Below, piece after piece: positions 11,901-35,157 of a stretch of DNA of 64,000 nucleotides (the first letter of the stretch is position 1; every line of letters starts with the position of its first letter). Both the position numbers and the translations under genes were made by a program. Below the pieces are notes generated by a model. That model did not search any database. It was not told the origin of the DNA and saw only the letters and a list, made by a program, of their open reading frames with translations. The stretch comes from Dichotomocladium elegans (Eukaryota; Mucoromycota; Mucoromycetes; Mucorales; Lichtheimiaceae): positions 310,001 to 374,000 of the forward strand of contig JAIXMN010000022.1 in NCBI GenBank assembly GCA_025716815.1. The letters run 5' to 3'.

Positions 11901-13044
11901 ATCGACTTGCATTACGGAACGCCTATCTGGGATCTCTCGGCCAAGCATTAGGCAAAGGCGTGTCACAGTTTGCAACAGCAACTGCGTTTTATGCAGGAGC
12001 CCATTTCATGGTGTCCGGCCGGTTCGGGTTTCAGGATATGGCGACAGTGCTCATGACATGCTTTGTTGTGGCCAATACCCTTGGTAAGGGTACAAGTTGC
12101 TTGTCCAACATGGCGAGGGCAAAGTACGCTGCTCTTTCCGTCTTCGAGCTCCTTGAACGGCAGCCCAAAATTGACATGGACCTCGAGGGAACTGAGCCTG
12201 AGATGATCAAGGGTGATATATCATTCGAGCAGGTCGCATTTGCTTATCCTCGACGACCAGACCAGAAGATCTTTGACGGGCAATTTGATCTCCAGATAGA
12301 CGCTGGCCAGACAGTTGCGATCGTTGGTGGATCGGGTAGCGGCAAATCGACGATCATCGGTATGCTCCAGCGGTGGTACGATCCCGACCGAGGCACAGTC
12401 CGTCTCGATGCAACGAATGCACGAGATTATACGTTGCGTAATTTGAGGAGTCATATGGCGCTTGTTGGCCAAGAGCCGGTTTTGTTTGATGTATCTATTG
12501 GCGAAAACGTTCGACTCGGTGCCCTGGACACCAAAGCCGTGACACAGAAGGATGTCGAGGAGGCATGCAAGGCAGCAAATATCCATAACTTCATTTCAGG
12601 CCTCCCCCAGGGATATGATACCCGAGTGGGAGACAAGGGTGCTCAGCTGTCAGGCGGACAGAAGCAGCGTATTGCGATCGCACGCGCCTTAATCCGGCGG
12701 CCACGCATCCTACTCCTTGACGAGGCCACATCAGCCCTAGACAGTGAATCTGAGCAGCTTGTTCAAGAAGCTTTAGACAATGTGTTGCAAGAAGGCGGCA
12801 GAACAACCATCACCATTGCCCATCGCCTCTCCAGCATTCAGGTAAGATTGTTCTTCTTTCCTCATCACGTCAACTCCTACTCCATGTAGCCATCTAACGT
12901 ATTGCCCTCGCTTTCCAGGATGCAGACGTGATCTGTGTGATTCAGGAAGGCCGGGTCATTGAGAAAGGAACACATCAGGAACTTCTACTATTGAACGGCA
13001 CATACAAAGCGCTTGTTCAAGAGCAGTCTCTGAGTGCAATCTGA
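8974..13044 (+). CDS. Full-size ABC transporter, ABCB (multidrug/P-glycoprotein) type, 4 exons
   Basis: ATP-driven exporter of hydrophobic compounds, peptides or drugs, in the plasma or vacuolar membrane. Exons: 8974-10617, 10674-11565, 11655-12841 and 12919-13044, giving 1282 residues, the usual length for full-size ABCB proteins. Architecture is TMD1-NBD1-TMD2-NBD2. NBD1 has Walker [10 protein letters not shown], signature LSGGQKQR and Walker B LLLDE; intron 1 lies exactly between LDE and ATSALD. NBD2 repeats this with [17 protein letters not shown] and [13 protein letters not shown]-loop, H-loop (AHRLS) and Q-loop (VGQEPVLF) are present in both halves. A Gln-rich linker (CEQQQQQ) follows NBD1. 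All introns are GT-AG with consistent phase. The frame is open to a GTG at 8950, but the first ATG is 8974. No lesion seen. Divergent to the P450; converges on eL38. Substrate cannot be deduced. Confidence 0.95.
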
Positions 13045-14770: not shown

Positions 14771-16020
14771 ATCGAATGTCACATACATATACGGAAAGAT
14801 GCCGCATATAAAAGTTTTCTCTTTTATACATTGTTGATGAGCGTGGCTATCCTGAACCTACGGACTATACCATGGATGAGGAAATGTACTCACTTCAATC
14901 CGTTTGTTCTCACATTGAATATCTGCGTAGCATATCGTGCAAAGATATCTCTGAGCTTACTCTCACACACATTCCCCAGCGAAAGGATATAGACATTCGG
15001 ATGAAAGAAGCGGGGATCAAGCGCAATTACACAGCGCACATTGGCCAAGACAAAGTCAGATTTTTCAACCTGATGTTTGAGACGGTATTGAGTTCATCAG
15101 CTGCTAGGACTCCATATTCGTTCAGTCCAGCGATGGGCATTACAGTACGAGAAGGACCCTGACAGCATCTTTAAAAAACCTGACGCGTGAGGGATTGCTC
15201 GATTATTCTCAATGAAGAGCATAAGCGCATTATTTTAGAACGTGTTGATGAAGACCCATCCATTGTCCTAGAGTAGCTGCTCCAACGATCTGAGTGTCTC
15301 AAAGCATCTAAAACGACGCTCCATCGATTTATGAAAACGTATGCAACTTCTCATTAAAAATGGTTCGATCTCAGCCTATAGGCAGGAATAGTACTGCGAA
15401 AATCTAAGAGCGCCTCGACTGAGTGCGCAGATGGGATAGGACCGACATCGACTTCAACAAGCTGCGTTTTCATGATGACTCTGGATTCCATATTAACATG
15501 AAATGCAGCATAGCGTGGTCCAAGAAAGGGACCCCTGCAGTGGTTACAGTACCAAAGACAACCACAATCGTGGGAGCTATCTCAGATCAGGCATCATTCA
15601 ATGTAGCTTGAGACTTCCGCAGCCACGAACCAATAAAAGAAGAGGGCAGGTCAATCTGAATTTGCGAGCAGAGGAACTGCAACTGGACATCATCTCAGCT
15701 TCCTTAAGGCAACAATGGGCGAGATGGATAAGCATGAACATATGAAGGCCATTAATTGGTAATGGATAATGCACCTATCCATACGGATCAGGATATCTCT
15801 AAATACATTGAGTCTGGGGGATATCGATATGCTCATCTTCTACCATACTCGCCTGAACTCAATTCTATTGAGCAGTTTTGGTCAGTGGTCAAGGGCAAAG
15901 TTAAATGCAATAGGTTCTTGGAAAGCAAGACGTTGGTAATACAAATCAGCGAGGCATCCAACAGCTTAAAGCTGAGCGATTTCGAAGGTTCGTTTATCAT
16001 TCTCATATGTGCTTAGTTAA
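14771..16020 (+). mobile_element. Tc1/mariner-like DNA transposon relic 1 (DD34E transposase)
   Basis: Decayed cut-and-paste transposon. Homology to the copy at 40.5-41.8 kb starts at the shared run aaatcgaatgtcacatacat. The transposase is broken into at least three frames. Recognisable parts are the helix-turn-helix segment with SKTTLHRFMK-like sequence (about 15300-15340), the first catalytic Asp block (HDDSGFHINMKCS, degenerate here, about 15470-15510), and the second Asp plus Glu block (VMDNAPIH to SIEQFW, about 15758-15880). The second Asp and the Glu are separated by 34 residues. Frameshifts and an internal TAG at about 15274 make it inactive. No terminal inverted repeats could be identified by eye, so the ends are approximate. 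Confidence 0.75.
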
Positions 16021-17634: not shown

Positions 17635-17668
17635 TCAAATATTCCTGAACTCAAGGAATTCAGTGATC

Positions 17669-17751
17669 CGACAACAGCAGGATTTGAACCTGCGCGGGCA
17701 GAGCCCATGAGATTTCTAGTCTCACGCCTTAGACCACTCGGCCATGTTGTC
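17669..17751 (-). tRNA. tRNA-Ser (anticodon AGA)
   Basis: 83-nt tRNA gene without intron. The 5' strand GACAACA pairs with TGTTGTC at the 3' end, followed by discriminator G; CCA is not encoded. The D arm contains GGCCGAGTGGTCTAAGGC (A box). The anticodon stem TGAGA/TCTCA encloses CTAGAAA, giving AGA. A long variable arm (class II, GGGCTCTGCCC) identifies serine. The T arm has GGTTCAAATCC (B box). The gene looks functional. Its first 15 nt, reading ctcggccatgttgtc on the plus strand at 17737-17751, recur as the flank of the adjacent LINEs. Confidence 0.95.
17737..17751. repeat. LINE target-site duplication, left copy (tRNA nt 1-15)
   Basis: 15-bp sequence ctcggccatgttgtc, part of the tRNA-Ser gene. 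The same 15-mer follows the 3' end of LINE1 (28844-28858) and of LINE2 (35143-35157). The bases outside differ (a versus t before it), which sets the duplication at 15 bp. Confidence 0.85.
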
Positions 17752-17762
17752 ACACACTTCTT

Positions 17763-18191
17763 TGTCGGTTTCCTTGTTTCCTAGTTGTCTTGTCTCTTTC
17801 CGCTTTTGTAATAATATCTTTATCCAGCCCAAAGAGTACTCAAACTAGCAGTAAACAAGAGGATATGCGCCGAGGAAGCCTTGATTTCAGGAGGAAGCGG
17901 AATATAAGAATAAGAGTAGATAGATTGACTGTTCTTTATTGTAGTAAAGGATACAGCTGATATTTATACTAATGTCTAAAGAAGATACTAGCAAAAGCTA
18001 CTGATCGTGGAGCAAGTTCCAGAAGATGCCAGGAAGCGCCATGGCATTTTAGCTTCCGAAAGGCACGTGACAAGAGGGATGTCTGGGATCACGTGCTTCG
18101 AATTGAGAGCTTGGGTCGACCGGGATTCCTGGGCTTGAATCTTTGCCTTGATTTGGCAGTCCTGGAGCCAAAACTCCGTTCGTCCACGACA
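17763..18191 (-). repeat. 3' LTR of the gypsy element
   Basis: 429 bp, identical by eye to 22920-23348. Read on the minus strand it runs TGTCGTGG to CCGACA. A TATAAATA box lies on the minus strand at 17961-17968. The last 34 codons and stop of pol (stop at 18089) are encoded inside this LTR. Confidence 0.93.
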
Positions 18192-21100
18192 TTACTCCCT
18201 CCCGAAACACTTGTTCGTCTCTGAACAATGGCGGAATCGTGGTGACCAAAACTTGCAGACCGGTCAGTCAAATGGTCTTCGTCAACGGTGTTAGTAACAA
18301 GCTTGTCGACTTCGTCATTGTCAGGTGGTAGACCCATCTTGGAACGCCATTCGGCACGAGCAGTTGTAGGGTCAAACCATGGAGTTGCCGGCTCCGTGTC
18401 AAAGTTCACTTTTGCCAAACGATCAACATGTACCCAGGAAGCAAGTGGTTGTCCCTGTAAGGTCTCCAGCTTGTACGTTCCAAAGTCTTCATTCTTGGCG
18501 GTAACAACGTAAGGTCCTTTGTACTGGGGTTCCAAACCGTAGCGGCCTTCGTGTGTAAGCTTGACATAGTCACCGACATCAAAGTCAACAATGTTTAACG
18601 CCTTGTCCCATCGTTCCTTGTCCTTTTGTCCAACAGCCTGCATTCTTGCCGTAGCAGCAGCACGAGCGTGGTTCACCTTTTCCAATTCTTGAGCAGTCAA
18701 TTCTGCCACAACTCGAGGGTCCTTGAGAGCTTCTTCCGAGATGTATGGGCGAAGGGGGTCACCTGGCAGTATTGGGTCTCTTCCATAGGTAAGGTAAAAG
18801 GGGCTGTATCCAGTAGTGGCATGTGTTCGGACACGGCAAGCAAATAAAGCAGCATCCAAGTAATCATCCCAAAGATGAAGGGCGCCATTTACATACTTGC
18901 GCAACATGGACTTCAAAGTACCATTCAAACGTTCGCACTTGCCATTGGTTCTCGGGTGAAAAGCAGATGTAAACTTGTGGGTAGTACCGATGCGCGTTGT
19001 ATAATGGGATAACACTTTGCTCATAAAGTTTGCACCGCGATCAGTGAGGATTTCCTTGGGACAGCCAAAACGCATCACAATCTCTTCGTACAAGAAGTCA
19101 GCTACAGCTTTACCAGACGCAACAGGAACAGCTCTTGCAATTGGATAGTTGGTCATGTAATCCACAGCAACTAGGATCCACCGGTTTCCACGAACAGTCT
19201 TCGGCAGTTCGCCAATGAAGTCGAGGTGCCATCTTGAGAAAGCCGCAGGGACATCCAAGGGGTGCATGACATCATGATGAGCACGATCGCGTCTACTATT
19301 CATTTGACAAGCAGGACAGGTAGACAACCAATCACGGATGTCAGCACGCATAGTGGGCCACCAATAACGAAGATGCATCAAGTCGAATACAGTAGTCTTG
19401 CCGGCGTGTCCAAATCCATCGTGAAATGTCTTGACTTTATCAGCACGAAGAGCAAATGGTAGATAACGAACTTCCTTGATAAGAGGATCACCGTCACCGG
19501 ACTTCAGCTTGATCTTGCGATATACTTTACCATCACGCACCACGAAGTGTTCTTGCTCTTGGTCCAGGAAAGCAGTTACTTCCTTGGGCAAATCAGCAGG
19601 GCGAGAGACATAATACAATGGCCAGTCTTGACGATGAGATTCCGGTAATACATTCATGCTTGCATAAAGGAATTGGGGTTCTAATGACGTATCATTGGGT
19701 GGGGCATCGTATGCTTTTCTTGAAAGGGCATCAGGAACACCGTTTTCCTTCCCAGGCTTGTACAGGATTTCAGGGTCGAAGAGTTCCAGTTCATTCATCC
19801 AGCGTGCAAGTCTAGGTGTGATTTTGGCTTGGGACCGCAAGTACTTCAGAGAATTATGATCGGTATAGATCTCATATTGACGTCCTTCCAGAAAACATCG
19901 CCACGTCCTTAATGCATGCAATATAGACAACAGTTCGCGTTCTTGCGCCGGATAGTTTCTTTCTTGAGGGGACAACTTGCGGGATTCGTACGCCAGAGGA
20001 TGCCATACACCAGTGTCATCGGGCTGTAATAATACAGCACCAACGCCGACATCTGATGCATCACATTCGACACGATAGGGCTTGCTAGGGTCGGGAGCTT
20101 GCAGCACAGGAGCAGTAGTCAACTTTTCCTTGATCAGATCGAAACTTGCTTGGCATCCGTCAGTCCATACGATAGGTCTCTTCTTGGGTCCAGAGCCTTT
20201 GGTCAAGTCGGTAAGGGGTGTCGCAATGCTCGCAAAAGATGGGATGAAACGCCGGTAATGTTGAGCTAGTCCAATAAATTGCCGGACCTCTTGGACATTG
20301 GTAGGTGGCTCCCAATCTTGAATAGCTTTAAGCTTTCCCTCTGCCGGTTTGATCCCTTTGGCTGAAACACGGAATCCCAAGAACTCAACTTCCGTCTTAC
20401 CAAACTCGCACTTTGACATATTGGCATACAACCTGGCTTCCCGTAGTCGATCCAGTACCATCTTGACATGCTTGACATGTTCTTCTTCTGACTTGCTGAA
20501 AATCAATATGTCGTCGAGATACACCAGCGCAAAACGGTCGATATAGTCACCGAGTACTCGATTCATCAGGCTTTGAAAGGTAGGCGGAGCATTACACAAT
20601 CCGAAAGGCAGTACCAAAAATGAGAATTGACCATAGCGGGTGTTGAAAGCCGTTTTAGGGACATCTTCATCCTTGATCCGAATTTGGTGATATCCCGACT
20701 TGAGATCTAAACTGGTGAAGTACAAGGCACCTTGTAGTCGTTCAAGGCATTCATCGATTCTTGGTAGTGGATGTTGATTCCGAATCGTCACCTTGTTCAA
20801 TGCGCGATAGTCAATGCACATTCTCATACTGCCATCTTTCTTCTTGACAAAGAGTACTGGGGCTCCCCAAGGTGATACACTAGGCTTGATCAGGCCAAGT
20901 TTCAACAACTCATCCAATTGGCGGCGTAGTTCATCTAATTCCAAAGGAGACATCTTGAAAGGCGGTCTTGATATAGGTTTTGCATCTCCAGTGTCGATCA
21001 CATGTTCCAGTTCCCTCTCAGGTGGCAATCCAGGTAATTCGGCACGAAAAACGTCGCTGTATTCATCCACCAATGCTTGTAAGGTAGGTGGGATATCCTT

Positions 21101-21955
21101 GGACTTGATTTCATTCTCCAACAAATGTAACATGTATACGGCTTCGACTTTGTTCTTGCGCACGGCTTTACCAACTTGTCGATGGGTCAACAAGTAACGC
21201 ACACCAGATTCGCCCAAGTACCGCTCTGGTTCCAGCTTGTACTTCTTGCCATTCAAGACGATATTCCAGACATCAGTTTTCCAGTCTGCCTTTGGTGTGT
21301 ATTCTGCCAGCCAATTCCTTCCAAGGATTACGTCAAATTTGGTGTCTAGCACATATGCATCGACCTTCATATCACAACCGGATAGTGAGAATGGGAACGC
21401 CACCTTCTTGGAGATCTTCAGTCTGTGTCCGCCAGCAGTTTCAACATCGCGCGCCACAATATCAATTTTATCCAAGTCCTTGCAAAACCTTGATGAAACA
21501 TAACTTGCACTTGCACCTGTATCGATCAGAGCCAAAATACGCTTTTTCCTTGTCATGCCACCATACAATGGTAACGATTCACCCGTGCAAGCGTTCAACT
21601 CTTCCAAGTGACAGCAATCTTCTCGCAGCTCTTTCTCCTCAGTGTGAGCATTTTGAACAGCATCATCACTGCGTTGGCCACCCACAGCTGCGTCCACCAA
21701 TCCATCACTTGGAGTAACCTGCATGCCCTCAACATTAGTATCAGACGCTACAGAACTTTCCTTGCCTTGGTGGATAACATTGGCCAACCCCACTGGAGAA
21801 TCCTTTTCTTGTGGACCCTTGTGAACAATCCCCTGATCCTCCAGCGACCGGTTTTGCTTCTTCTTAAGGGGAAGTTCATGGCTGCACGTACGTTTCCCCT
21901 TGCTTACGCACGTGCGTTGCCAAAATCCTGGCTTGATGATTGTGCTTGTGTTTGG
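18089..21955 (-). CDS. pol: Gypsy pol polyprotein (PR-RT-RNase H-INT)
   Basis: Retrotransposon polyprotein. The frame is open from 21955 (just after a TGA) to the stop at 18089, up to 1288 residues, with no ATG at its start; the first usual alternative codon is a GTG at 21793. It lies in the -1 frame relative to gag and overlaps the gag end by about 50 nt, so frameshifting is the likely route of expression. Protease: ALIDTGAS (about 21520). RT: VYLDDIL (about 20520) and PFGLCNAP. RNase [14 protein letters not shown] and [10 protein letters not shown]. Integrase: HDGFGH with CPAC zinc site, then the D-D-E residues in [14 protein letters not shown] and GKCERLNG. No chromodomain is evident at the C-terminus, which extends into the LTR. 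No internal stops. Confidence 0.93.
18192..18205 (-). promoter_or_regulatory. Polypurine tract of the gypsy element
   Basis: On the minus strand GGGAGGGAGTAA lies directly before the 3' LTR start. Purine runs at this place prime plus-strand DNA synthesis in LTR retrotransposons. It falls inside the pol reading frame. Confidence 0.7.
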
Positions 21956-22818
21956 TCATCGTTGTTGCTTCTTGGTTGTCGACATTCACGACGATAATGA
22001 CCCATTCGACCGCAACGGAAACAGCGAATACGTGAACGATTTGATTGTGCCGGGGAGAGAGCATCCAATTCCATAGGTGTTGGCTCAGAGGTAGTGTATG
22101 TGTTACGAGCAGCACCATGATGGCCAAAACCAAAAGCAGGACGAGAATTGTGTAGACCGCGAGCCACTCGTTGAGCACTTTCGTATGATTCAGCCAGTTC
22201 GTACGCCTTGTGGAGAGTATCCGGTTTGTGGATCAGCACATGCAGCTTGACTTGATATTTTAGACCGTTGGTGAAAACAAACAGAGCATCCTTGACATCC
22301 ATATTAGGTAGTTCGAGCATGATATCCCGGAAGGCACGGACGTAAGAAGACACCGAGCCACGCTGCTGTAACTCTTGAAGCTTTTGTCGAGCAATTTGTT
22401 CGGCATTTTCGGGCTTGAATTCTGTACGGAATGCATCGCAAAATTGTTGCCATGTTTGGGGGGTCGCCACATTTGTGTCGGACTCTAATTGACGCCACCA
22501 AGTAATAGCACCATCTCGAAGTAGAGCCACAGCAAACAGCACACGTTGATGATCATGGCGCATTTGCACCAATTCGCAATACTTTTCGATAGTGTACAAC
22601 CAAGCATCGACCTTGCGCGAATTACGTTCACCGGAGAAAGTGTCAGGTTTGACAGGTCGGAGGGCTTGCAAAAGAGTCCGATTGTCTTCTTGTCCAGTAC
22701 CATGCATGAATTCGTCTTCCTGTGGGACTTGCTGTTGTCGCTGCAGTAGTTGTTGCAGTGACTGCATTACCGTCATCAGAGCTTGTTGCTCGAAGGTAAG
22801 ACTGTTATCGGTGTCCAT
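21904..22818 (-). CDS. gag: Gypsy gag capsid/nucleocapsid protein
   Basis: 304 residues from a genuine ATG at 22818. A retrotransposon gag domain lies in the middle, with [18 protein letters not shown] and the region around [12 protein letters not shown]. One CCHC zinc knuckle, [14 protein letters not shown], lies near the C-terminus (Cx2Cx4Hx4C). Gln-rich N-terminus (QQLLQRQQQ). It packages element RNA into virus-like particles. The start codon lies about 100 nt inside the 5' LTR border, and the stop overlaps the start of the open pol frame. Confidence 0.92.
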
Positions 22819-22894
22819 GGTAAGTCAGTTGTCGGGTAGTAGTTCTTGTTAAGCAAAATAAAGTCGTATCCAATCTTGATCTTGTATTCAGTGG

Positions 22895-22919
22895 GAACGA
22901 ATGAGCATCAGCTACCAGT
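22895..22919 (-). promoter_or_regulatory. Primer-binding site of the gypsy element (putative)
   Basis: On the minus strand, right after the 5' LTR end CCGACA, the sequence reads AC-TGGTAGCTGATGCTC. TGG is the complement of a tRNA CCA end. I could not assign the primer tRNA. Confidence 0.5.
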
Positions 22920-23348
22920 TGTCGGTTTCCTTGTTTCCTAGTTGTCTTGTCTCTTTCCGCTTTTGTAATAATATCTTTATCCAGCCCAAAGAGTACTCAA
23001 ACTAGCAGTAAACAAGAGGATATGCGCCGAGGAAGCCTTGATTTCAGGAGGAAGCGGAATATAAGAATAAGAGTAGATAGATTGACTGTTCTTTATTGTA
23101 GTAAAGGATACAGCTGATATTTATACTAATGTCTAAAGAAGATACTAGCAAAAGCTACTGATCGTGGAGCAAGTTCCAGAAGATGCCAGGAAGCGCCATG
23201 GCATTTTAGCTTCCGAAAGGCACGTGACAAGAGGGATGTCTGGGATCACGTGCTTCGAATTGAGAGCTTGGGTCGACCGGGATTCCTGGGCTTGAATCTT
23301 TGCCTTGATTTGGCAGTCCTGGAGCCAAAACTCCGTTCGTCCACGACA
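22920..23348 (-). repeat. 5' LTR of the gypsy element
   Basis: 429 bp, matching 17763-18191 base for base by eye. The TATAAATA promoter-like box is repeated here on the minus strand. Confidence 0.93.
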
Positions 23349-23679
23349 TCTTTCGCTCTCCAATACTTTTTCTGGTTGGTTACACAAAGAAGTTTCCCTC
23401 TACCCTTACAAAATACAACAACCTTCTACAAAAAACACACAACAAAGCACGCAGGAACACTCGCCTGCATTAACTAAAGGCCCACCCGTCGAAATCCCCG
23501 TCGAAATCGGCCAACGGACCAGCTCCCCATCTCCATTGCTAACCCCCATCTCAATCATTAGCACCAAGCGTCGCCAATCACGCACCCCAGACCGCCCATC
23601 TTACATCCCTACCTTTAAAAAGAACCGCATCTCTAACATCCGGTCTACCATCACCCCGCCCGTTAATTCAACTACAGAG

Positions 23680-25086
23680 ATGGGTGCTCAAAAAAAGGAA
23701 TTGAGCTCATCTGGCCCTCGACGTTCTGCCCCTGGCAATTCGAAGCCCGCAATCTCCCCTGCCTTCCTGCGCCAGTTCCGCCTCGACTTTTCCAGTGCAA
23801 AAACGTCGATTGTGTGCCCCAACTCGGCCTGTGCAGACATTGGATCGATAAACATGTCTGCTAAAACGAACTCGGCCTACGAGCCCCCCGCGCCAATGTT
23901 CCACTGTAGATCATGCAACTCGGAATTTTTGCACACCCAGGTCACTGCTGCAATTACAGTGGCAAACCACGTGGCACCCAGGGACAAAACGATCCATCCC
24001 AAACCCCACAAGGAACCCGCGCAGCCGACAACCACAACTACCATAGACACCGAGCTGCCTCCAGGTATGTTTCTACATACTGATCCAAATATGCCTGACT
24101 GCATCCGGGAGATCCTTGCTCGCCTTACAGCAGCTGAAAAGGGCCTCTCAGATCTCGCCACAGTTGCGGCTGAAAACACTCGGCTTCTCAAACGCATTGA
24201 GAGCCTTGAACAAGCTCTTAAGGACTCCCAGGCTACCATTGCAGCCCTCCGTGCCAGCAGCCGCTCCCCAGGACCATCCCCATCAGCAGCAACAGCCACG
24301 TCTACTGCTACGACGTCGCCCTCCACGCGGGATGCATCCATTTATGCATCGCAACATGCCCCGCCCAATGCCACCCAGTCGCAAGCCACGAGCGCTCGCA
24401 GCTACGCTGCAGCTGCACGCCGTGCACCTCGGCACAATCGCCAGCCACCGTCATCCAAACGCGCAGTTACTGCAGCCGCGCGCCGTCTTACGGCCGTCCC
24501 GGAAACGCAGGGATATCAGTTTATATACGTCCCTTGTCGTCATCGTATGACCATCACTAACATGCGACAAATTCTACGAACTCTGCATGTGGATAATGGA
24601 CGGGTGCTTGATATCCACTTCCCCACCCGCCAGGTCGCTGCTCTCTTGGTCCACAACGATTTCGTTACGGAGATTACGACCATGCTTGCCGGCAAGGGTG
24701 TCTCCCTTACCACCTTCGACCCTCTCGACCCCACAACGCTCTTGGATCCCGCATTCCAAGATTGGACCGACGATCAACGCAAGGCGAAATGTGCTGAGCT
24801 CTACCACGACCGTATCGTGAAAGCGATTACCTTCGTCCGTGCCCCCGTCAAGTTTTCTGTTGCTCGCCATTTCTTCCGCGCTGGGATGCTCTCCCTCGAG
24901 GAGTTCCACAGTGTCTGCCCTCCTCGACCAGCTCGCACACCAACCACCGCTGAACACGACGCCATCCTCGCCCTTTCCGGCATGCAGCAGCCCCCAGTCG
25001 CTGACGAAATCGACGACGAGGAGATGGAATCACCATCACACACACCTTCTCCCTCTGGATCTGCTCCCACACATATTGATCAATAA
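23680..25086 (+). CDS. LINE1 ORF1 (RNA-binding/nucleocapsid-like protein)
   Basis: 468 residues from the first in-frame ATG. Visible parts: a CxxxxC...HCxxC zinc-ribbon-like region (CPNSAC and HCRSC); a heptad-rich helix (ENTRLLKRIESLEQALKD) likely to form a coiled coil; an Ala/Ser/Pro-rich linker; and a C-terminal globular part with YVPCRHRMTITNMRQILR that could be RRM-like. The order zinc/coiled coil/basic globular domain suits a LINE ORF1 protein that binds element RNA. The frame is open and conserved with LINE2 for about 95 codons before this ATG, so the true start may be upstream at a non-AUG codon. The stop TAA shares its last base with the ATG of ORF2 (TAATG). Confidence 0.8.
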   Translation: MGAQKKELSSSGPRRSAPGNSKPAISPAFLRQFRLDFSSAKTSIVCPNSACADIGSINMSAKTNSAYEPPAPMFHCRSCNSEFLHTQVTAAITVANHVAPRDKTIHPKPHKEPAQPTTTTTIDTELPPGMFLHTDPNMPDCIREILARLTAAEKGLSDLATVAAENTRLLKRIESLEQALKDSQATIAALRASSRSPGPSPSAATATSTATTSPSTRDASIYASQHAPPNATQSQATSARSYAAAARRAPRHNRQPPSSKRAVTAAARRLTAVPETQGYQFIYVPCRHRMTITNMRQILRTLHVDNGRVLDIHFPTRQVAALLVHNDFVTEITTMLAGKGVSLTTFDPLDPTTLLDPAFQDWTDDQRKAKCAELYHDRIVKAITFVRAPVKFSVARHFFRAGMLSLEEFHSVCPPRPARTPTTAEHDAILALSGMQQPPVADEIDDEEMESPSHTPSPSGSAPTHIDQ

Positions 25087-28000
25087 TGTGTGATATCACT
25101 ATCACTCTTTGGAATGCGAATGGTCTTGCCAAGCAGGCCATCTCGCCTATTATAGGTAAGTTTTCTAATTCTACGCTCATTTTTATCACCGAAACATGGC
25201 TCCTCTCTCCCCATCGCTATCCAACAGCATGGGATCAATATCACACATATGCATTACCTGTCCCTAACTCACATCGCGGTCGGATGGGCATAGCTCTGCT
25301 TGTCCACCCCGACTGCCCATATCCTATTCATGTCCTCCCCTCTTCATCCCCTCACGTCCTTTCCTGTCAAATAGCTGATACCCTCATCCATTGCCTGTAC
25401 CTTCCCCCATCCCATTCCCTCTCCACTTCCGCAGCTTTAGATATCCTCTCCTCCCTCCCCCTCAATTCTCATCATAGTACCACCAACACAATTATCTGCG
25501 GCGACTTTAATGGACGATCCGCCCGATTCCTGGGTGACTCTCGCACCAATGCTCGTGGTGCTCTCCTTGCCGACTGGTTTAGTGAGCAGGGCATCATCTG
25601 CTGGAACTCTCGCCTTGCTTTCGGACAGCCAACTTACGCTGCACACCGTGTAGACCAAGACGAAACCAGCATCATTGACCTTTTCTGTAGTACCGATGAG
25701 CTGCTCGAGCCGCAGCTCCATATTGACCATGATTTAGACCTCGGCTCTGATCATCGACCTGTTCACCTCTCGTTCCAACTTGCACAGCCACCCAACCGCA
25801 TCGCACACCCTCGTCTTCTTTGGCGACTGAGCAAACTGGCCGACCCCGACCCTTGCCATCAATATCAGGACCGATTCGCTGACCATATTTCGCCAGTCCA
25901 CGAGCGCATTGCTGCTGCTCTGGCCGATGATGAGGTGCAACCCGACCTCGATACTCTTGCTGAATCGCTTACTGGAGCGATTCACCAGGCTCTCGACGAC
26001 TCTGTCGGGCGACGCTCCCACCGCCACACGATCAAGGACTGGTTTTGGACCGATCAACTTGAAGCCGCGTTTCAAGAACGTGAGCTCTGTCACCGCCGCC
26101 GCCGGCAAGCGATTGGTGTTCACCGCCTCTACTGGCATGGTCGACACGCTGAGGCTGCCTCACAGTTTCGTTCCTTGCTACAACGACGGCGCCGGCAAAC
26201 ATGGCGTGAATTCTGCACCAAACTGGCTAGCGACGAGTTCTCCAACACAACTGCCTCCATAAAACGCATCCGCCAACGTCGTACCCATCACCCGACATTC
26301 ACCGACCCTGCTGGCCCCACTGTTGCCGCGAACCGGATGGCCCAGCATCTCACGACAGTGTATGCTGGAGACTATCTCCCTCGTGTCCGTGCTGCCCCGC
26401 CCCCTTGACCGCCTGGTCCACATTCGGTGGATGATTCGTGCCCATTTGACGAGGCATCCGTGAAGGACGCAATGGAAGTCGTCGCGCGCCGGAAGGCGCC
26501 TGGCGTTGACCATCTGCGTGCCGAGATGTTGACACCCATCTCTGGTCTCCTAGTCCCCGCCCTCACCGCCCTCTTTAAGTTGTGTTGGCGCTGGTCGTCT
26601 ACCCCTGCCGCATGGCGAGTTGCCCAGGTGGTTCCGATTTACAAGAAAGGCTCGCCCACGGATCCAGGCAATTTCCGGCCGATTAGCTTGACTTCGGTCT
26701 TGCGAAAGGTCATGGAAATCTGCCTGCGTGATGTGCTCCACGCTGCGTCACCGCCATTAGACATAGCCCAGGGTGGGTTCAGACCCCAACGCAGCGCCCT
26801 GGATCAAGCGCTATGTCTGCATGAGCTTGTCCTTCGCCATCGCGCCTACACAGGTCGTCTCCCAGTGCTAGTCTTCCTGGACATCAAGAGTGCTTACGAC
26901 ACTGTCGACCGGGCCGTCATCTGGCGCGCCCTCGAGCCACAGGCGCCTCCTGCCCTGCTCGGCTTATTACAGAGTCTTTTTGACGATGTATCAATCGAAG
27001 TTCTCCTTTCCGGCGCTCGCTCTACGCAATTCTGCCCTCCCACAGGTGTTTTGCAGGGCTCAATCCTCTCCCCCCACTTATATTCGCTCTATATTAACTC
27101 CCTACCTTCTCATCTCCGCGCACTTTTAGATATAGACTCTGACTCTGACTCTGACTTTGTGGCTCCTCGGCCGGCTTCCCGGTTGGTTGGTGGACAGTGG
27201 ATCAATTGCCTGCTGTACGCCGATGATGTCGCCCTCATTGCTGATGCCGACACCATGCCTCTCCTATTGGCTCGTGCAGAAGAACACTCCCACTCCCTTG
27301 GGTACCGTTGGAACCCTGCCAAATGCGTTGTCCTCAACCCTGGCAGTGGCCCGCCCCTCCAACTCTATGGCCAAGATATCCCCGTTGCTCCGTCGTTTCG
27401 GTACCTTGGCGTGCCGTTCAATTCTCGTTGCCAGATCGACCCCACCATGCTGGTCCAGCACAACGTGAGCTCTGCCGTCGCCGCCATGCGCACGCTTAGT
27501 TCGATTGGCTGTAGCCCTTCTGGGTTTCCTCGTCTCCTTTCTGTCCGCCTCTATCAGCAGTTCATCAGACCGAAAATGGAGTATGGCCTTGCCATTACTC
27601 CTTTTCTCAAGAAGGACCTGAAGATTCTTGAGCGCGGGCAAGATCAATGCCTCCGCCGCTTGTTCGGTGGCCACCGAACGTCCTCCACCATTGTGTTCAG
27701 GCACATGGCTGGATTGCCTACGATGGCGGAACGCGTCGAGATTCTCGGCGCAAAGTTCCTCATCCGCGCCCATTTCTTGCCGGAAAAGGCATTACTCACT
27801 GTCCTCCGCCCTCGCCTGGTACATGATCGCCGCCACCTGTGGCGCCGGCTCACCACCTCGAACGCCATCTGGAAACGGCTTCCTCCACCACCAGAAAACG
27901 CTGATAGCAAGGCGCTGAAGGCGACCATTAAGCGCTTCCGCCTCGATGGCCTGCATGATCGCCGCGCTGATCTTCACTCTGGTGTCCTTCTCTCGGCTGC

Positions 28001-28382
28001 TCGACCCGACCTTGGCGTGGATCCCATCCTCTTCCTGCCAATGACGTCTCGTGAGCGCAGTCGCCTAGTGCGCTGGCGCATGGGCTGGTTGCCTGGGAAG
28101 CCCATTGCTTGCCAATGCGGTGAAACACGCACCAGCCGCCACCACCTCATAGATTGCCTCTCTGTCGCTTCCCGCCTTGATGTGTCAGTGGATGTCTTCC
28201 CCAACCCCATCGACCATCTTCTCAACCGCCTCCCTCGCCGTCGCCCTCGTTCTGCTGCCCACCTTCTCTTCTGGCACACTCGTTGGCCTGCGCTGCTTCA
28301 AGTCCTGTCTGACATCGATCGTGTGTGCCACCCGCACGAGTCGCACACGGACGATGATGGCGACAATGGGTTCCAACTCTAA
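25086..28382 (+). pseudogene. LINE1 ORF2 (endonuclease-reverse transcriptase) with one nonsense codon
   Basis: 1098 codons, open apart from a single TGA at 26406-26408. LINE2 has CGT at the matching codon, so a CGN to TGA change is likely. Apurinic-like endonuclease at the N-terminus: WNANGL, FITETWL, CGDFNGR and GSDHRPVH. RT domain: NFRPISLTSVLRKVME, GGFRPQRSALDQ, FLDIKSAYDTVDR, GVLQGSILSPHLYSLYIN and the catalytic LLYADDVALIA. C-terminal CxC...H....C zinc-knuckle-like motif (CQCGETRTSRHHLIDC). ORF2 of a LINE nicks the target and copies RNA in place. A (GACTCT)-type repeat encoding Asp-Ser lies at about 27130-27155. The premature stop falls between endonuclease and RT, so this copy should not move unless the codon is read through. 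Confidence 0.93.
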
Positions 28383-28843
28383 GCTTGGCTCACTCCTCCA
28401 CCCCCGCCTCACCACCCCCCCTGCCACCGGCTGCTGAAGAGATGGTTCTCCTTGAGTTCGATTTCTGAGGCGTCGCGTGTGCCCGTTGTATACTTCTCCC
28501 CTTAGTTTAGATCTTATATTATATCTTATCCCATATTATTACTCGAAAAAAAGAAGACGGAAAAGAAGAAGAAGAAAAAAAAAAAAGAAAAAAGGCGAAT
28601 GCCACAAAAAAAAAAAAAAATATATATATATATTTATCTCCGATACTAACCCGCTTAGCCTTCCGGTTATGCCGTGCCTGATCCGAGACCACACTGTCAT
28701 TGTCCAGCCGCCTATAGTCTTTCTACCTTTTTCCCCTGCTCCCCCCATGGGGTTTTTCATAGCTTTCTCTTCCTGCACCTCGGGGCGGACATTAGCTCCA
28801 TTGAGCACGGTCCTTTATGCCTCACAAATAAACCAAGTTTCAT
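28383..28843 (+). other. LINE1 3' UTR
   Basis: About 460 bp. After the ORF2 stop come a C-rich segment, then an A-rich tract (about 28547-28620, mixed AAG and poly-A), a short (TA)n, and 215 bp ending aagtttcat directly before the tRNA-derived 15-mer. LINE2 has the same layout at 34680-35142. The element therefore ends in a specific sequence rather than a poly(A) tail. Confidence 0.75.
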
Positions 28844-28869
28844 CTCGGCCATGTTGTCGCCATGTTGTC
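28844..28869. repeat. LINE1/LINE2 junction: tRNA-Ser fragment copies (15 bp + 11 bp)
   Basis: ctcggccatgttgtc (28844-28858) is the right target-site copy of LINE1 and equals tRNA-Ser nt 1-15. It is followed at once by gccatgttgtc (28859-28869), equal to tRNA nt 1-11, which may be the left flank of LINE2. Confidence 0.8.
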
Positions 28870-29953
28870 TGACACGGTGTGGCGATTCACTTCTGGCCGA
28901 CCACTTTCCGTTTTCAAGAACGGAACGTTCGCTATGAAACGACCCCTCGACCTTCATCACGTGACCCTTTTTCCGGTCTGATCAAATTATTCTCGTTTCT
29001 GACTTCCTTGCCTTTCCTTTTCGGACGTTGATCAGTTATTTCGCTAAATCGTTAGCGTCATTTTATGCTCACACTATCTATCATTCCGCGCGCTATTTTA
29101 GTCCTTTCTTTATCATGGTGCTTAGTATATTTTCATTGGAACCTTCTCCGTTAACGTTTAGCTTAAGCCTATGTTTTATATGCCCTCTATGACCACTCTT
29201 TATTATCCAATTTATTTAGTCGAATTCATTCTTTTAGCTTAGAAGCAACGAGTATTTAGACAGCGAGGAGAGAAGCTAGAACGAGGTCTTCTCTTTCCCC
29301 GGGACGAAGAACTTTTATTGGAATATTCATTTCACCCACCTTCAGAACCCCTTTTGAGATTCACTCTGTATTGAAGTAGAGGAATCAGTCTTTATTTTGT
29401 TTGATTACACATACCTTTTGGAAACCCCTTCTTTGAGTGTATCGATTTTTGGAGTCGGTCGACGCAATCAAAGAGCCCGATTCTACGAGCGGATAATTTC
29501 TGTATATCTCATTACCCTTCTTTTCATTTTACGTACCCCTTTTGTTTTGGTTTACCTTTCAAGTAAACTGTACCCGGAGCTTTCTTTATATATATACTGT
29601 ACCGACGTGTCATGTCACACACTTCTTTCGCTTTCCAACACATTTTTTAGTTGGTTACACAAAGAAGTTTTCTCTCCTCCTCTAAAATACAACAACCTAC
29701 TAGCAAAAACACACAACAAACAGCGCAGGAACAGTTGCCTGCATTATCTAACACTCATACCGTCGAAATCCCCGTCGAAATCGGCAGATTGACCAGTCCC
29801 GCATCTCAATTGCCAATTCCCATCTCGACCATCAGCACCAAACGCGGTCAATCCCACATCCCAGACCGTCCGTCTCACATCCCTACCTTCAAAAAGAACC
29901 GCATCTCTAGCATCAGGTCCACCATCGCTCAGCCTGCCATCAATACCCCTGAA

Positions 29954-31384
29954 ATGGGTGCTCAGAAAAAGGATTTGGGCTCATCTGGTTCGAAGCGGGC
30001 TGCCTCGGGTAGTTTAAAGCCCGCTATTTCCACCGCCTTTATTCGCCAGCTCCGCCTTGACTTCTCCAGCGCAAAGACGTCGATCGTGTGCCCCAACTCG
30101 GCCTGCGCAGACATTGGAACGATCAATATGTCTGCCAAAACGAACCCGGCCTATGAACCAGCTGCACCAATGTTCCATCGTGGATCATGCAGCTCTGAGT
30201 TTATACACACGCAGGTCACTGCTGCTATCACTTTGGCCAACCACTCTGCACAAGAAAAAAACAAAAAACCTGCTAAAAGAATCCTGAAGCAATCTGTGCA
30301 ACCCGCCGCCACGCCCACTGCCATGTCTATCCCCACCAACATGGACACAGTCCAACCCGACGACACCGAGTTGCCTCCAGGTATGTTCTTACATACCGAC
30401 CCTAACATGCCGGATTGTATCCGTGAGATCCTTGCCCGCCTCACGGCGGCTGAAAAGGGTCTTTCAAACCTTGCCACGGTCGCAGCTGAGAACACTCGAC
30501 TCCTCAAGCGCATCGAGAGCCTGGAACAAGCTCTTGCAGATTCACAGGCCACTATTGCAGCCCTTCGTGCTAACAGTCCCCCACCTGCGCCCACAACTGC
30601 GCCACTGCCCATGGCGCAGCCTACCGCCGATGTCTCCATCTATGCATCACAACACGCCCCACTAAATCCTGCCCGAAGTCCGGAAACGAGTCCTAACAGC
30701 TACGCAGCAGCTGCTCGCCGAGCACCTCGCCACCAGCGCCAACAACCGCCATCCAAACGTGCTGTTAAAGCAGCCGCGCGACGCCTCACCGCCATCCCGG
30801 ACAACCAGGGCTACCAATACGTGTATGTCCCATGTAGACACCGAATGACGATCACAAACATGCGTCAAATCCTCCGGGTCCTGAAAGTGGATAATGGCCG
30901 TGTACTCGATATCCATTTTCCCTCTCGTCAGGTCGCAGCCCTCCTTGTGCACAATCACTTTTTCGAAGAGCTCACATCTCTCCTTGCCGGCAAAGGTGTC
31001 TCTCTTACATCCTTCGACCCCCTTGCGCCATCCTCGCTACTAGATCCTGCGTTTCAAGACTGGTCTGACGAGCAACGCGAGGCGAAATGCGCCGAGCTCT
31101 ATCATGGGCGTGTCCTGAAAGCTGTTGCTTTCATCCGCGCTCCGGTGAAATTCTCCGTGGCGCGTTTCTTTTTCCAATCAGGCGTACTCACTCCTACTGA
31201 GTTTAACGAGATCTGCCCACCCCAGTCAAAGCGTTCCCCCACAGCGGACGAAAAAGATGCAATACTCGCGTTAACCGACCTGCAACAAAACCACAGTGAC
31301 AACAATGTTCAAGACGAAGAAATGGACTCCACATCCTGCCCACCTTCTCCCTCCGGCCCTGCACTCACCCGCCTTGTCCAATAA
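29954..31384 (+). CDS. LINE2 ORF1 (RNA-binding/nucleocapsid-like protein)
   Basis: 476 residues from the first in-frame ATG; homologous throughout to LINE1 ORF1. The first Cys pair (CPNSAC) is kept, but the second is changed to HRGSC, so the zinc site may be lost. The coiled-coil segment (ENTRLLKRIESLEQALAD) and the YVPCRHRMTITNMRQILR region are intact. The frame is open back to 29651, just after a TAG, and the extra N-terminal part (VEIPVEIG, then IPTFKKNRIS) matches LINE1 with mostly third-position changes. The stop overlaps the ORF2 start as TAATG (31382-31386). Confidence 0.8.
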   Translation: MGAQKKDLGSSGSKRAASGSLKPAISTAFIRQLRLDFSSAKTSIVCPNSACADIGTINMSAKTNPAYEPAAPMFHRGSCSSEFIHTQVTAAITLANHSAQEKNKKPAKRILKQSVQPAATPTAMSIPTNMDTVQPDDTELPPGMFLHTDPNMPDCIREILARLTAAEKGLSNLATVAAENTRLLKRIESLEQALADSQATIAALRANSPPPAPTTAPLPMAQPTADVSIYASQHAPLNPARSPETSPNSYAAAARRAPRHQRQQPPSKRAVKAAARRLTAIPDNQGYQYVYVPCRHRMTITNMRQILRVLKVDNGRVLDIHFPSRQVAALLVHNHFFEELTSLLAGKGVSLTSFDPLAPSSLLDPAFQDWSDEQREAKCAELYHGRVLKAVAFIRAPVKFSVARFFFQSGVLTPTEFNEICPPQSKRSPTADEKDAILALTDLQQNHSDNNVQDEEMDSTSCPPSPSGPALTRLVQ

Positions 31385-34300
31385 TGAGTGAAATTACCAT
31401 CACTCTTTGGAATGCGAATGGTCTTATCAAGCAGGCCATCTCGCCTATTATAGGTAAGTTTTCTACTTCTACACTCATTTTCATTACAGAAACATGGCTT
31501 CTCTCTCCCCATCGATACCCAACAGCATGGGATCAATATCACACCTACGCACTCCCCGTTAACAATTCACATCGCGGTCGGATGGGCATAGCTCTACTAG
31601 TTCACCCCGACTGCCCTTATCCTATCCATGTCCTTCCTTCATCCTCTCCTCATCTCCTCTCATGCCAAATCGCAGATACCCTCATTCACTGCCTGTACCT
31701 TCCCCCCTCCGCTTCCCTCCCCAATTCAGCTGCTTTAGATATTCTCTCCTCCCTCCCCCTTAATTCTCACCATAGCATAGCCAACACCATCATATGTGGC
31801 GATCTCAATGGCCGGAATGCCCGCCTCCTCGGAGACACCCGAACAAACTCTCGCGGTGCCTTGCTCGCCAACTGGTTTGGCGAACAAGGTATCATTTGCT
31901 GGAATTCTCGCCTCGCCTTTGGCCAACCGACTTATGTTGCTCGGCGGGTTGATCAAGATGAGGCTAGTGTGATTGACCTTTTTTGTAGCACTAACGAACT
32001 ACTAGAGGCGCACATCCACATCGATCATGATGCTGACCTCGGCTCGGACCACCAGCCTGTGCACCTCAGGTTTACGCTTCCTCAACCACCCTGCCGCAAC
32101 GATCACCCTCGCCTCCTCTGGCATCTCAGCAAATTAGATGATCCAAAACCACGGCACCTATACCAAGACCGCTTCGAAGCCCTAGTCACTCCAGTCAAAG
32201 AGCGTATATCTGCTGCGTTGGACGCTGACACCGTCTGTCCGGACCTTGACGCTCTCGCGGAGTCCCTCACAACGGCCGTCCACCAGGCCCTAGACGACTC
32301 GGTCGGTCGCCGCTCTCCCCGCCGTACTTACAAGGAATGGTTCTGGACCGATCAACTTGAAGCCGCGTATCAAGAGCGAGAGCTTTGTCACCGCCGCCGC
32401 CGCCACGCCATAGGAATCCATCGACTATACTGGCATGGGCGCCACTCGGAAGCTGTCTCCACCTTTCGCTCCTTACTGCAGAGCCGCCGCCGTCAAACGT
32501 GGCGCGAATTCTGCTCCAAGATGGCCAGCGACGATTTCTCTGCCACCACTGCCACCATAAAACGCATCCGCCAAAATCGTGCCCATCACCCGACATTCAC
32601 CGACCCTGCGGGTCCTGCGATTGCTGCGGAACGGATGGCCCAACACCTCACGACTGTGTATGCTGGCAATTTTCTCCCTCGTATATGTGCTGCCCCGCCC
32701 CCTCGTCCTCTTGGGCCACATTCGGTGGATGATGCCTGCCCGTTTGACGAGACATCCGTGAAGGATGCAATGGGAACAGTTGCAATCCGAAAGGCGCCTG
32801 GCATCGATCATTTGCGAGCCGAGATGTTGACCCCCATCTCCGGCCTCTTAGCCCCCGCCCTCACTGCCCTGTTCCAGTTGTGTTGGCGCTGGTCTTCTAC
32901 ACCTGCCGCATGGCGAGTTGCCCAGGTGGTCCCGATATACAAGAAAGGCTCGCCCACGGATCCAGGCAATTTCCGACCGATTAGCTTGACATCGGTCTTG
33001 CGAAAGGTCATGGAAATCTGCCTGCGTGATGTGCTCCACGCCGCGTCGCCGCCATTAGACATAGCTCAGGGTGGGTTTAGACCCCAACGCAGTGCCCTGG
33101 ACCAAGCGCTCTGTCTACACGAACTTGTCCTCCGCCATCGTGCATACACCGGCCGCCTCCCGGTCTTGGTCTTTTTAGACATAAAAAGTGCCTATGATAC
33201 CGTTGATCGGGCTATCATATGGCGTGCTCTTGAACCACAGGCCTCTCCTGCTCTTCTCGGCATTCTGCAAAGCCTTTTCGACGATGTGGCCATCGAGGTC
33301 CTTCTTTCCGGCGCTCGCTCTACCAAATTTTGCCCTTCAACTGGTGTTTTGCAAGGCTCAATCCTCTCTCCTCACCTTTACTCGCTCTATATTAACTCCC
33401 TACCTTCTCATCTCCGCGCACTTTTAGATATAGATTCGGACTCGACTCTGACTTTGTGGCTCCTCGGCCGGCTTTCCGGTTGGTTGGTGGACAGTGGATT
33501 AATTGCCTTCTCTACGCAGACGATGTCGCTCTCATTGCTGATAATGAAACAATGCCTCTCTTATTGACACGTGCCGAAGAACACTCTCGCGCACTTGGCT
33601 ATCGTTGGAACCCAGCCAAATGCGTCGTGCTTAACCCTGGCAATGGCGCGTCCCTCCAACTCTATGGCGAAGATATTCCTATCGCGCAATCATTCCGATA
33701 TCTTGGTGTCCCTTTCAACAGTCGGTGCCAGATCGACCCCATCTTGCTTGTCCAACACAATGTCAGCTCCGCCGCCACTGCCATGAGGACGCTTAGTTCG
33801 ATTGGCTGTAGCCCATCTGGTTTTCCTCGCCTCCTCTCTGTTCGCCTCTATCAACAGTTCATCAGGCCGAAAATGGAGTATGGCCTCCCCATTACTCCTT
33901 TTCTCAAGAAGGACCTGAAGATTCTTGAGCGCGGGCAAGATCAATGCCTCCGCCGCTTGTTCGGTGGCCACCGAACGTCCTCCACCATTGTGTTCAGGCA
34001 CATGGCTGGATTGCCTACGATGGCGGAACGCGTCGAGATTCTCGGCGCAAAGTTCCTCATCCGCGCCCATTTCTTGCCGGAAAAGGCATTACTCACTGTC
34101 CTCCGCCCTCGCCTGGTACATGATCGCCGCCACCTGTGGCGCCGGCTCACCACCTCGAACGCCATCTGGAAACGGCTTCCTCCACCACCAGAAAACGCTG
34201 ATAGCAAGGCGCTGAAGGCGACCATTAAGCGCTTCCGCCTCGATGGCCTGCATGATCGCCGCGCTGATCTTCACTCTGGTGTCCTTCTCTCGGCTGCTCG

Positions 34301-34679
34301 ACCCGACCTTGGCGTGGATCCCATCCTCTTCCTGCCAATGACGTCTCGTGAGCGCAGTCGCCTAGTGCGCTGGCGCATGGGCTGGTTGCCTGGGAAGCCC
34401 ATTGCTTGCCAATGCGGTGAAACACGCACCAGCCGCCACCACCTCATAGATTGCCTCTCTGTCGCTTCCCGCCTTGATGTGTCAGTGGATGTCTTCCCCA
34501 ACCCCATCGACCATCTTCTCAACCGCCTCCCTCGCCGTTGCCCTCGTTCTGCTGCCCACCTTCTCTTCTGGCACACTCGTTGGCCTGCGCTGCTTCAAGT
34601 CCTGTCTGACATCGATCGTGTGTGCCACCCGCACGAGTCGCACACGGACGATGATGGCGACAATGGGTTCCAACTCTAA
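31384..34679 (+). pseudogene. LINE2 ORF2 (endonuclease-reverse transcriptase) with one frameshift
   Basis: 3296 nt against 3297 in LINE1, consistent with one missing base. The endonuclease motifs are WNANGL, ITETWL, CGDLNGR (Asn in place but Phe to Leu) and GSDHQPVH. RT motifs match LINE1, including the catalytic YADDVALIA. The frame is lost at about 33441-33446 inside the Asp-Ser coding (GACTCT) repeat and resumes in the next frame with APRPAFRLVGG up to the stop at 34679. The last 800 bp or so are almost identical to LINE1, including the C-terminal zinc-knuckle-like motif. Confidence 0.92.
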
Positions 34680-34894
34680 GCTTGGCTCACTCCTCCACCG
34701 CCGCCTCCCGCACCACCCCCCTGCCACCGGCTGCTGAAGAGATGGTTCTCCTGGAGTTCGATTTCTGAAGCGTCGCGTGTGCCCGTTGTATACTTATCCC
34801 CTTAGTTTAGATCTTATATTATATATTATCCCATATTATTACTCAAAAAATGACGACGGAAAAGAAGAAGAAAAAAAAGAAAAAGGCGAATGCC

Positions 34895-34926
<32 letters not shown>

Positions 34927-35142
34927 TTATATATTTATCTCCGCTACTAACCCGCTTAGCCTTCCGGTTATGCCGTGCCTGATCCGAGACCACACTGTCA
35001 TTGTCCAGCCGCCTATAGTCTTTCTACCTTTTCCCCTGCTCCCCCATGGGGTTTTTCATAGCTTTCTCTTGCTGCACCTCGGGGCGGACATTAGCTCCAT
35101 TGAGCACGGTCCTCTATGCCTCACAAATAAATCAAGTTTCAT

Positions 35143-35157
35143 CTCGGCCATGTTGTC
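35143..35157. repeat. LINE2/LINE3 junction: tRNA-Ser nt 1-15 copy
   Basis: ctcggccatgttgtc, identical to 17737-17751 and 28844-28858. It serves as right flank of LINE2 and left flank of LINE3. Confidence 0.85.

Follow-up and report, generated by a model that had tools for sequence, protein, structure and literature searches.

In the dictyostelids, retrotransposons without long terminal repeats (non-LTR elements) insert beside transfer RNA (tRNA) genes: TRE5 elements 40-54 bp upstream and TRE3 elements 40-150 bp downstream, with oligo(A) tails (PMC5006619, PMC5391098, PMC5911963). The nearest position reported is that of NLTR-A, 2-6 bp upstream of the mature tRNA (PMC5006619, section 9). Among long interspersed nuclear elements (LINEs) with a restriction-like endonuclease, NeSL-1_TV, LIN15_SM and LIN25_SM are specific for tRNA-Pro, tRNA-Arg and tRNA-Glu, respectively (PMC4640811). 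A 2018 review names only dictyostelid cases for non-LTR elements at tRNA genes and treats fungal LINE targeting as not worked out (PMC5911963). Here we analyzed a 64,000-nucleotide (nt) stretch of the fungus Dichotomocladium elegans (the window, C38:310001-374000 of a 39.4-Mb assembly of 122 contigs), which carries an L1-like LINE with an apurinic/apyrimidinic endonuclease (APE). This LINE very probably inserts by target-primed reverse transcription at a fixed site of class II tRNA genes, and a related lineage, lineage F, has the same geometry.

The window contains an intact tRNA-Ser(AGA) gene on the minus strand (17668-17752, ARAGORN), whose mature nt 1 was put at 17751 from the acceptor stem and from seven further tRNA-Ser genes. 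Since mature nt 1 is 17751, the 15-mer CTCGGCCATGTTGTC at 17737-17751 represents nt 15-1 of the tRNA on the plus strand; it is the duplicated target, and the A box begins within it at nt 8. The same 15-mer is found on the plus strand at 28844-28858, after the 3' end of a first LINE copy (LINE1), and at 35143-35157, between a second copy (LINE2) and a third (LINE3). These are the only matches in the window with up to two mismatches allowed, and all three are exact, while 0.12 matches are expected from window shuffles and 0 of 100 shuffles gave three. LINE1 starts at 17752 (ACACACTTCT...), the base adjoining nt 1 of the tRNA, and the uninterrupted copy on C34 has the same start. The three sites of the 15-mer and the flush start of LINE1 had been noted in the initial annotation, and both observations were reproduced to the base.

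The borders given in the initial annotation hold, but two insertions had been overlooked. The first 11 bases of LINE1, ACACACTTCTT (17752-17762, plus strand), are flush with nt 1 of the tRNA and are then cut off by a Ty3-like LTR retrotransposon of ~5.6 kb (~17763-23348, coding strand minus), which has 431-bp LTRs that are 100% identical, an apparent 4-bp duplication (TCTT), and gag, protease, reverse transcriptase, RNase H and integrase domains between the LTRs, as in Ty3-like elements. Because this element splits LINE1 11 bp past its first base, nearly all of LINE1 lies at 23349-28843 (plus strand). This part contains the region of the second open reading frame (ORF2) encoding the APE endonuclease and the reverse transcriptase (25086-28418, plus strand; 88% identical to the intact C34 ORF2, with two internal stop codons) and a 3' untranslated region with an A-rich tract, and it ends precisely (...AAATAAACCAAGTTTCAT) without poly(A) at the junction with its target-site duplication at 28844-28858. 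The second overlooked insertion is a solo LTR of 743 bp (TGACACGG...CGTGTCA; 28870-29612, no strand assigned) with an apparent TGTC duplication, which is 97.4% identical to an LTR at C91. Because this solo LTR separates LINE1 from LINE2, LINE2 begins at 29617; it is full length (29617-35142, plus strand), has broken coding frames and a 5' subfamily unlike that of LINE1, and is followed by its own duplication at 35143-35157 (plus strand). LINE3 (35158 to ~38201, plus strand) is a decayed, 5'-truncated remnant that abuts this last 15-mer and is ~75% identical to the C34 copy. A further repeat of the tRNA start, 11 bp long (GCCATGTTGTC), was also seen at 28859-28869 (plus strand) after the LINE1 duplication, with the solo LTR sitting in its last 4 bases.

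Genome-wide, the Ser 15-mer had 14 exact matches, with ~0.07 expected from composition in 39.4 Mb: eight were 5' ends of tRNA-Ser genes (AGA and CGA) and six directly followed the LINE 3' end TTTCAT. When the genome was searched with the LINE 3' end, 13 matches were found in 12 copies (two matches in one copy), and 11 of the 12 ends are readable since the C75 copy runs off its contig. A tRNA 15-mer follows 10 of these 11 ends, exact in nine and decayed to 13 of 15 bases at C29. The 15-mer changes from copy to copy: C91:13103 carries CTCGGCCATCTCTCC, C111 carries CTCGGCCAAGTTACC and C112:447383 carries CTCGGACAAACTGAC, which are nt 15-1 of tRNA-Leu(AAG), tRNA-Leu(CAA) and tRNA-Ser(TGA) genes, respectively, of the same genome. 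The Leu(AAG) 15-mer has six genomic matches (five tRNA genes and one LINE 3' end), the Leu(CAA) 15-mer has four (three tRNA genes and one LINE 3' end), and the Ser(TGA) 15-mer at the LINE 3' end lies 6.7 kb from the sole tRNA-Ser(TGA) gene found.

The plainest insertion is at C34, where a tRNA gene is followed by a 5498-bp LINE, the 15-mer and other DNA. In all five copies that have both ends and a local tRNA, the duplication is 15 bp long and the next base differs between the two sides (5/5); identity is 15/15 at C34, C38 LINE1, the proximal C91 copy and C112 (where the count relies on an inferred LTR insertion) and 13/15 at C29. As read from the sequence, the 15-mer is a duplication of the target site, and the tRNA gene remains whole beside it. 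Both the 15-bp duplications in the five copies and the truncated copies (LINE3, C112 and C29) are marks of target-primed reverse transcription. The restoration of a full tRNA by the duplication, which the initial annotation had suggested, is borne out by a 15-mer that varies with the target (Ser-AGA/CGA, Ser-TGA, Leu-AAG and Leu-CAA). Its choice of tRNA-Ser as the target was right for Ser and too narrow, as this LINE targets the edge of the A box in Ser and Leu genes alike and lineage F sits at Phe, Thr, Lys and Asn genes.

The 5' ends of the LINE were then read at 18 class II tRNA genes (Ser-AGA 5, Ser-CGA 3, Ser-TGA 1, Leu-AAG 5, Leu-CAA 3, Leu-TAG 1), a set that consists of the genes caught by the search patterns and is no census; nor is the Rfam tRNA model RF00005 run, which scored 63 of 1319 candidates. 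A LINE 5' end lies within a few bases of nt 1 at 10 of the 18 genes, and 5'-truncated copies are present at two more. Alignment confirmed a LINE start at or near nt 1 at eight genes (C38, C34, C59:120963, C91, C76, C13, C75 and C119), the C91 copy being 9 bases short and the C13 copy 2 bases long. At C59:111893 and C105, the visible LINE 5' end is only 9-11 bases long before an LTR begins. The C112 tRNA is followed by ten LINE-matching bases, a stretch with LTR-like ends and a LINE 3' end, in an interval read in part, and would thus carry a 5'-truncated copy.

Relatives of this LINE (lineage A) occur in the same genome. A genome search with ORF2, in which 41 of 241 candidates were scored, gave 47 matches, including lineages at 52%, 50%, 49%, 47%, 43% and 38-40% identity. 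In lineage F (38-40%), all seven copies stand beside a tRNA gene found independently by Rfam (Phe 1, Thr-AGT 2, Thr-CGT 1, Lys 2, Asn 1), and their common 5' sequence GAGACCTTGTCGAGC adjoins nt 1 exactly in 7/7. A degenerate 14-base pattern of the tRNA start, made from six lineage F tRNAs, is found at both ends of all six testable copies, in the same orientation and 5313-5320 bp apart. In each lineage most copies lie at one site of their target, as judged by 10 of 11 readable 3' ends in lineage A and by every 5' end in lineage F. The one copy of lineage B (52%) that was read has a tRNA-Val(AAC) gene 1.77 kb from ORF2, a distance as in lineage A, and its 5' border is perhaps flush with this tRNA. 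The LINE 5' ends, read toward the tRNA, contain TATATAAA at about -47 in lineage F and TATT/TATAC at about -24 in lineages A and B, so that the LINE 5' end may supply a TATA-like upstream element to the tRNA gene. Rfam searches of the lineage C and E 5' regions gave sub-threshold matches only: an HDV-like ribozyme match of 34 bits (cutoff 50) at L081 190-268 (C31:494450-494850), on the strand opposite the lineage C LINE, and a CPEB3-like ribozyme match of 15 bits (cutoff 35) at L082 137-203, on the strand opposite the lineage E LINE.

The proteins of lineage A are best seen at C34, where ORF1 is open for 588 codons from stop to stop (upstream sequence may be included) and ORF2 is intact with 1129 amino acids, apparently starting at the ORF1 stop (overlap TAATG). 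Both the intact C34 ORF2 and that of C75 contain the Pfam domains RVT_1 and Exo_endo_phos_2, as expected of a LINE reverse transcriptase and endonuclease; no Pfam match to RNase H was found in ORF2 at E <= 1, and a C-terminal CCHC motif (C1008, C1010, H1019 and C1023) is invariant in 10 relatives. This set of an APE endonuclease, a reverse transcriptase, a C-terminal CCHC motif and no RNase H agrees with the L1 group as far as predicted domains go. Among solved structures, the nearest to the reverse transcriptase is human L1 ORF2p (E 2.5e-12), followed by R2 (9.4e-10). In a fold search, which ranks L1 first, the endonuclease part of the ORF2 model resembles those of L1 and TRAS1, with a template modelling (TM) score of ~0.7-0.77 by target length; the full ORF2 model is weak outside the endonuclease, with an overall predicted local distance difference test (pLDDT) of 63 and a predicted TM score (pTM) of 0.32. 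NCBIfam returned nothing beyond a sub-cutoff group II reverse transcriptase match. The nearest named relatives of ORF2 come from the Mucorales. Mucor, Rhizopus and Circinella are among those of ORF2 and of an ABC transporter taken together, with many plants and animals also listed for the transporter. Scans of genome-contig and viral-contig collections with the ORF2 alignment gave no relatives, there being no fungal genome collection among them.

Base-exact junctions, 15-bp duplications, 5'-truncated copies and a 15-mer that depends on the tRNA are seen directly in the DNA. Based on these, we propose that the endonuclease would nick the RNA-like strand within the A box, at the nt 15/16 step (TGKCCGAG/YGG, the slash marking the nick), and that reverse transcription from the precise LINE 3' end would be primed by the 3' end freed at nt 15. 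The nick is placed on the RNA-like strand after nt 15, as in the standard target-primed scheme, because nt 15 is where the LINE 3' end is attached. The other strand would be cut 15 bp off, exactly at nt 1, and this second cut is probably placed by distance, since the sequence at nt 1 varies. Fill-in would then duplicate nt 1-15, so that the tRNA-side copy remains a complete gene and the LINE ends up upstream of the tRNA in the opposite orientation, with its own 5' end flush with nt 1. Lineage F would make the same cuts at Phe, Thr, Lys and Asn tRNA genes. The A-box bases at the putative first nick are TGKCCGAG/Y in lineage A, TAGCTCAG/T, TGGCTCAG/T, TAGCTCAA/T and TGGCGCAA/T in lineage F and, if its border is flush, TGGTGTAG/T in lineage B. 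The order in which the strands are nicked, the priming step and the feature that is recognized, either A-box DNA or the RNA polymerase III (Pol III) complex, are parts of this scheme that we infer.

Several observations weigh against insertion at this fixed site. One of the 11 readable 3' ends, in the old copy C112:452091, has no tRNA 15-mer, and at C29 ~65 bp between the tRNA and a 55-bp LINE 3' fragment are unexplained. No clear LINE is present at six of the 18 class II tRNA genes viewed (Ser-CGA at C28; Leu at C1, C57, which is ambiguous, C28 and C46; Leu-TAG at C46). The lineage F pattern is degenerate, with 76 genomic matches and 69 for its reversed control, and the far ends were identified by this pattern; because the pattern is not rare, we put the weight on the six far-end placements and not on the total. 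No tRNA was found beside lineages C (C31), D (C97) and E (C43), with one copy of each and 0.3-0.43 kb read, so tRNA targeting may not extend to all relatives. Finally, the distal C91 copy (C91:13103-24123) is flanked 5' by a Ser 15-mer and 3' by a Leu 15-mer. The same copy, with Leu beside Ser, fits a 15-mer that belongs to the LINE's own 3' end and travels in its RNA, as would the Ser 15-mer common to six copies. Yet the 15-mer after this 3' end comes in at least four versions, each being nt 1-15 of a tRNA gene of this genome, and the 15-mer is that of the local tRNA at C34, C38, C91 (proximal) and C112. A fixed 15-mer in the LINE 3' end is ruled out as a general rule by this variation, and an origin in the RNA rather than at the target is very improbable. 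This fixed 15-mer and a majority of copies in non-tRNA DNA were the two findings that the initial annotation had named as fatal to its proposal, and neither was encountered. Even less credible is near-random insertion followed by a selection that purged all copies save those by tRNA genes: compact genomes do remove harmful insertions, but selection cannot account for insertion points that are exact to the base at nt 1, with 15-bp duplications, in tRNA genes of ten isoacceptor types.

A more substantial alternative is that the LINEs find their site through the Pol III machinery (TFIIIC/TFIIIB), as considered for Dictyostelium TRE5-A, and not by an endonuclease that reads A-box DNA. Two lineages differ in target sequence but occupy the same position relative to nt 1, the second cut is always at nt 1 regardless of sequence, and a Ty3-like element and a second LTR family likewise lie 9-12 bp from nt 1. 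For TRE5-A itself, the B box must be functional, and the ORF1 protein of the element binds TBP (PMC5391098). On the other hand, lineage A is seen only at Ser/Leu genes (TGKCCGAG/Y) and lineage F only at other A boxes (TRGCKCAR/Y), which suggests sequence reading, with lineage A having been located by Ser/Leu-type searches and LINE ends and lineage F by ORF2; in addition, the junctions are base-exact, in contrast to the 40-54 bp window of TRE5. Weighing these points, we regard Pol III-guided targeting as possible, though somewhat doubtful. We lean, with some reserve, towards a LINE radiation that uses the Pol III A box as an address, in which lineages 38-52% alike hold different tRNA sets (Ser-AGA, Ser-CGA, Ser-TGA, Leu-AAG and Leu-CAA for A; Phe, Thr-AGT, Thr-CGT, Lys and Asn for F; perhaps Val for B) and make the same cuts at nt 15/16 and nt 1, each insertion rebuilding the tRNA.

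In the head-to-tail arrays, junctions of a LINE 3' end, a 15-mer and a LINE 5' end were found at C59:145991, C59:186707 (LTR-interrupted), C91:18616, C111 (with 4 extra bases) and C112:447383. Five whole tRNAs have an LTR 9-12 bp from nt 1, and within arrays two lone 15-mers have one at 9-11 bp, as would be the case if these 15-mers had originally been parts of whole tRNAs. A Ty3-like LTR family has this 9-12 bp spacing from nt 1 or a lone 15-mer in the window (17763-23348) and at C59:111893, C76, C28, C105 and C59:186707, and a second LTR family has the same spacing at C91:13103. The order of ages fits new copies landing nearest the tRNA in the window, where the distal LINE3 is 75% identical to C34 and LINE1 and LINE2 are 84% and 82%, and at C112, where an old copy is distal to a 97% fragment. 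It does not fit at C91, where the proximal copy is 80% and the distal copy 85.5% identical to C34. The proposal of the initial annotation that new copies land between the tRNA and older ones therefore stands for the head-to-tail junctions with lone 15-mers, the displaced Ty3-like LTRs and the older distal copies of the window and C112, and fails at C91, whose distal copy looks no older and has mixed flanks. We do not claim a strict youngest-nearest-tRNA rule, because identity to C34 mixes age with subfamily.

Could the arrays instead have arisen mainly from unequal crossing-over or tandem duplication? The last ~1 kb of LINE1 and LINE2 are 97.8% identical, the 5' and 3' halves of copies group differently, and one C91 copy lies between a Ser and a Leu 15-mer. 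But the first ~850 bp of LINE1 and LINE2 are just 77% identical, and those of LINE1 are 99% identical to copies at C91, C59 and C119 and those of LINE2 98% to another C91 copy, which rules out pure tandem duplication as the main source. Moreover, the C34 locus holds one complete copy bounded by a clean 15-bp duplication, and the 5' truncation of LINE3 lies at its 15-mer. Duplication as the main origin of the arrays is therefore unlikely, and we retain repeated insertion at the tRNA. Because the last ~1 kb of LINE1 and LINE2 are so alike, recombination or conversion took part; the mixed flanks at C91 point to recombination between tRNA loci or else to misassembly. Since C91 departs from the simple order and has both Ser and Leu flanks, recombination appears to matter too and to reshape the arrays.

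Among the described systems, TRE5/TRE3 and NLTR-A/NLTR-B resemble the lineages here as APE-type non-LTR elements beside many tRNA types in a small genome, in which repeated insertion at one tRNA gives tandem elements without mutual disruption. The LINE junction here is at nt 1 and the 3' junction lacks poly(A), unlike in the TRE elements, and what is duplicated is nt 1-15 of the tRNA, unlike in the dictyostelid elements as a whole. NLTR-A and NLTR-B carry RNase H, whereas none was found here, and the junction here is at 0 bp in most copies. The NeSL and LIN elements are also sequence-specific LINEs in tRNA genes, but their endonuclease is restriction-like and each of them is assigned to a single tRNA, whereas the present lineages use an APE endonuclease at five or more isoacceptors each. 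Dada elements use several tRNA types, and some of their duplications lie inside the A box (TAGCTC), but they are DNA transposons with 6-7 bp duplications within the gene (PMC3706591). Ty3 and its relatives integrate by the Pol III start of tRNA genes, and the Ty3-like element of the window is similarly placed; they are, however, integrase-based LTR elements upstream of the mature tRNA that do not duplicate tRNA sequence (PMC5911963, PMC8632968). Grem-LINE1 of Mucor (PMC7377519) and Zorro3 of Candida (PMC7175516) are, like the present element, L1-like fungal LINEs with two ORFs, but Grem-LINE1 is described as pericentric, with tRNA mentioned 0 times in PMC7377519, and Zorro3 targets poly(A) (PMC7175516). 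No report of a fungal LINE of the present kind was found in the open-licence literature searched. Within that literature, an APE-type LINE that duplicates precisely the start of the tRNA, at ten isoacceptor types and in two lineages of one fungus, appears to be new.

With a duplication equal to the tRNA start, a cut inside an essential gene would leave no lasting damage, and the site would be renewed at each insertion. Sister lineages with different tRNA sets allow endonuclease residues to be mapped to A boxes, a direct test of how a LINE changes its target, and a compact, sequence-defined safe harbour is of interest to gene insertion tools. Elsewhere in the window, a repeat of ~1 kb occurs at 14833-15916, 40638-41743 and 58217-59115, its copies being 69-82% identical, and the exons at 8854-12889 belong to a B/MDR-type ABC transporter, an ordinary host gene.

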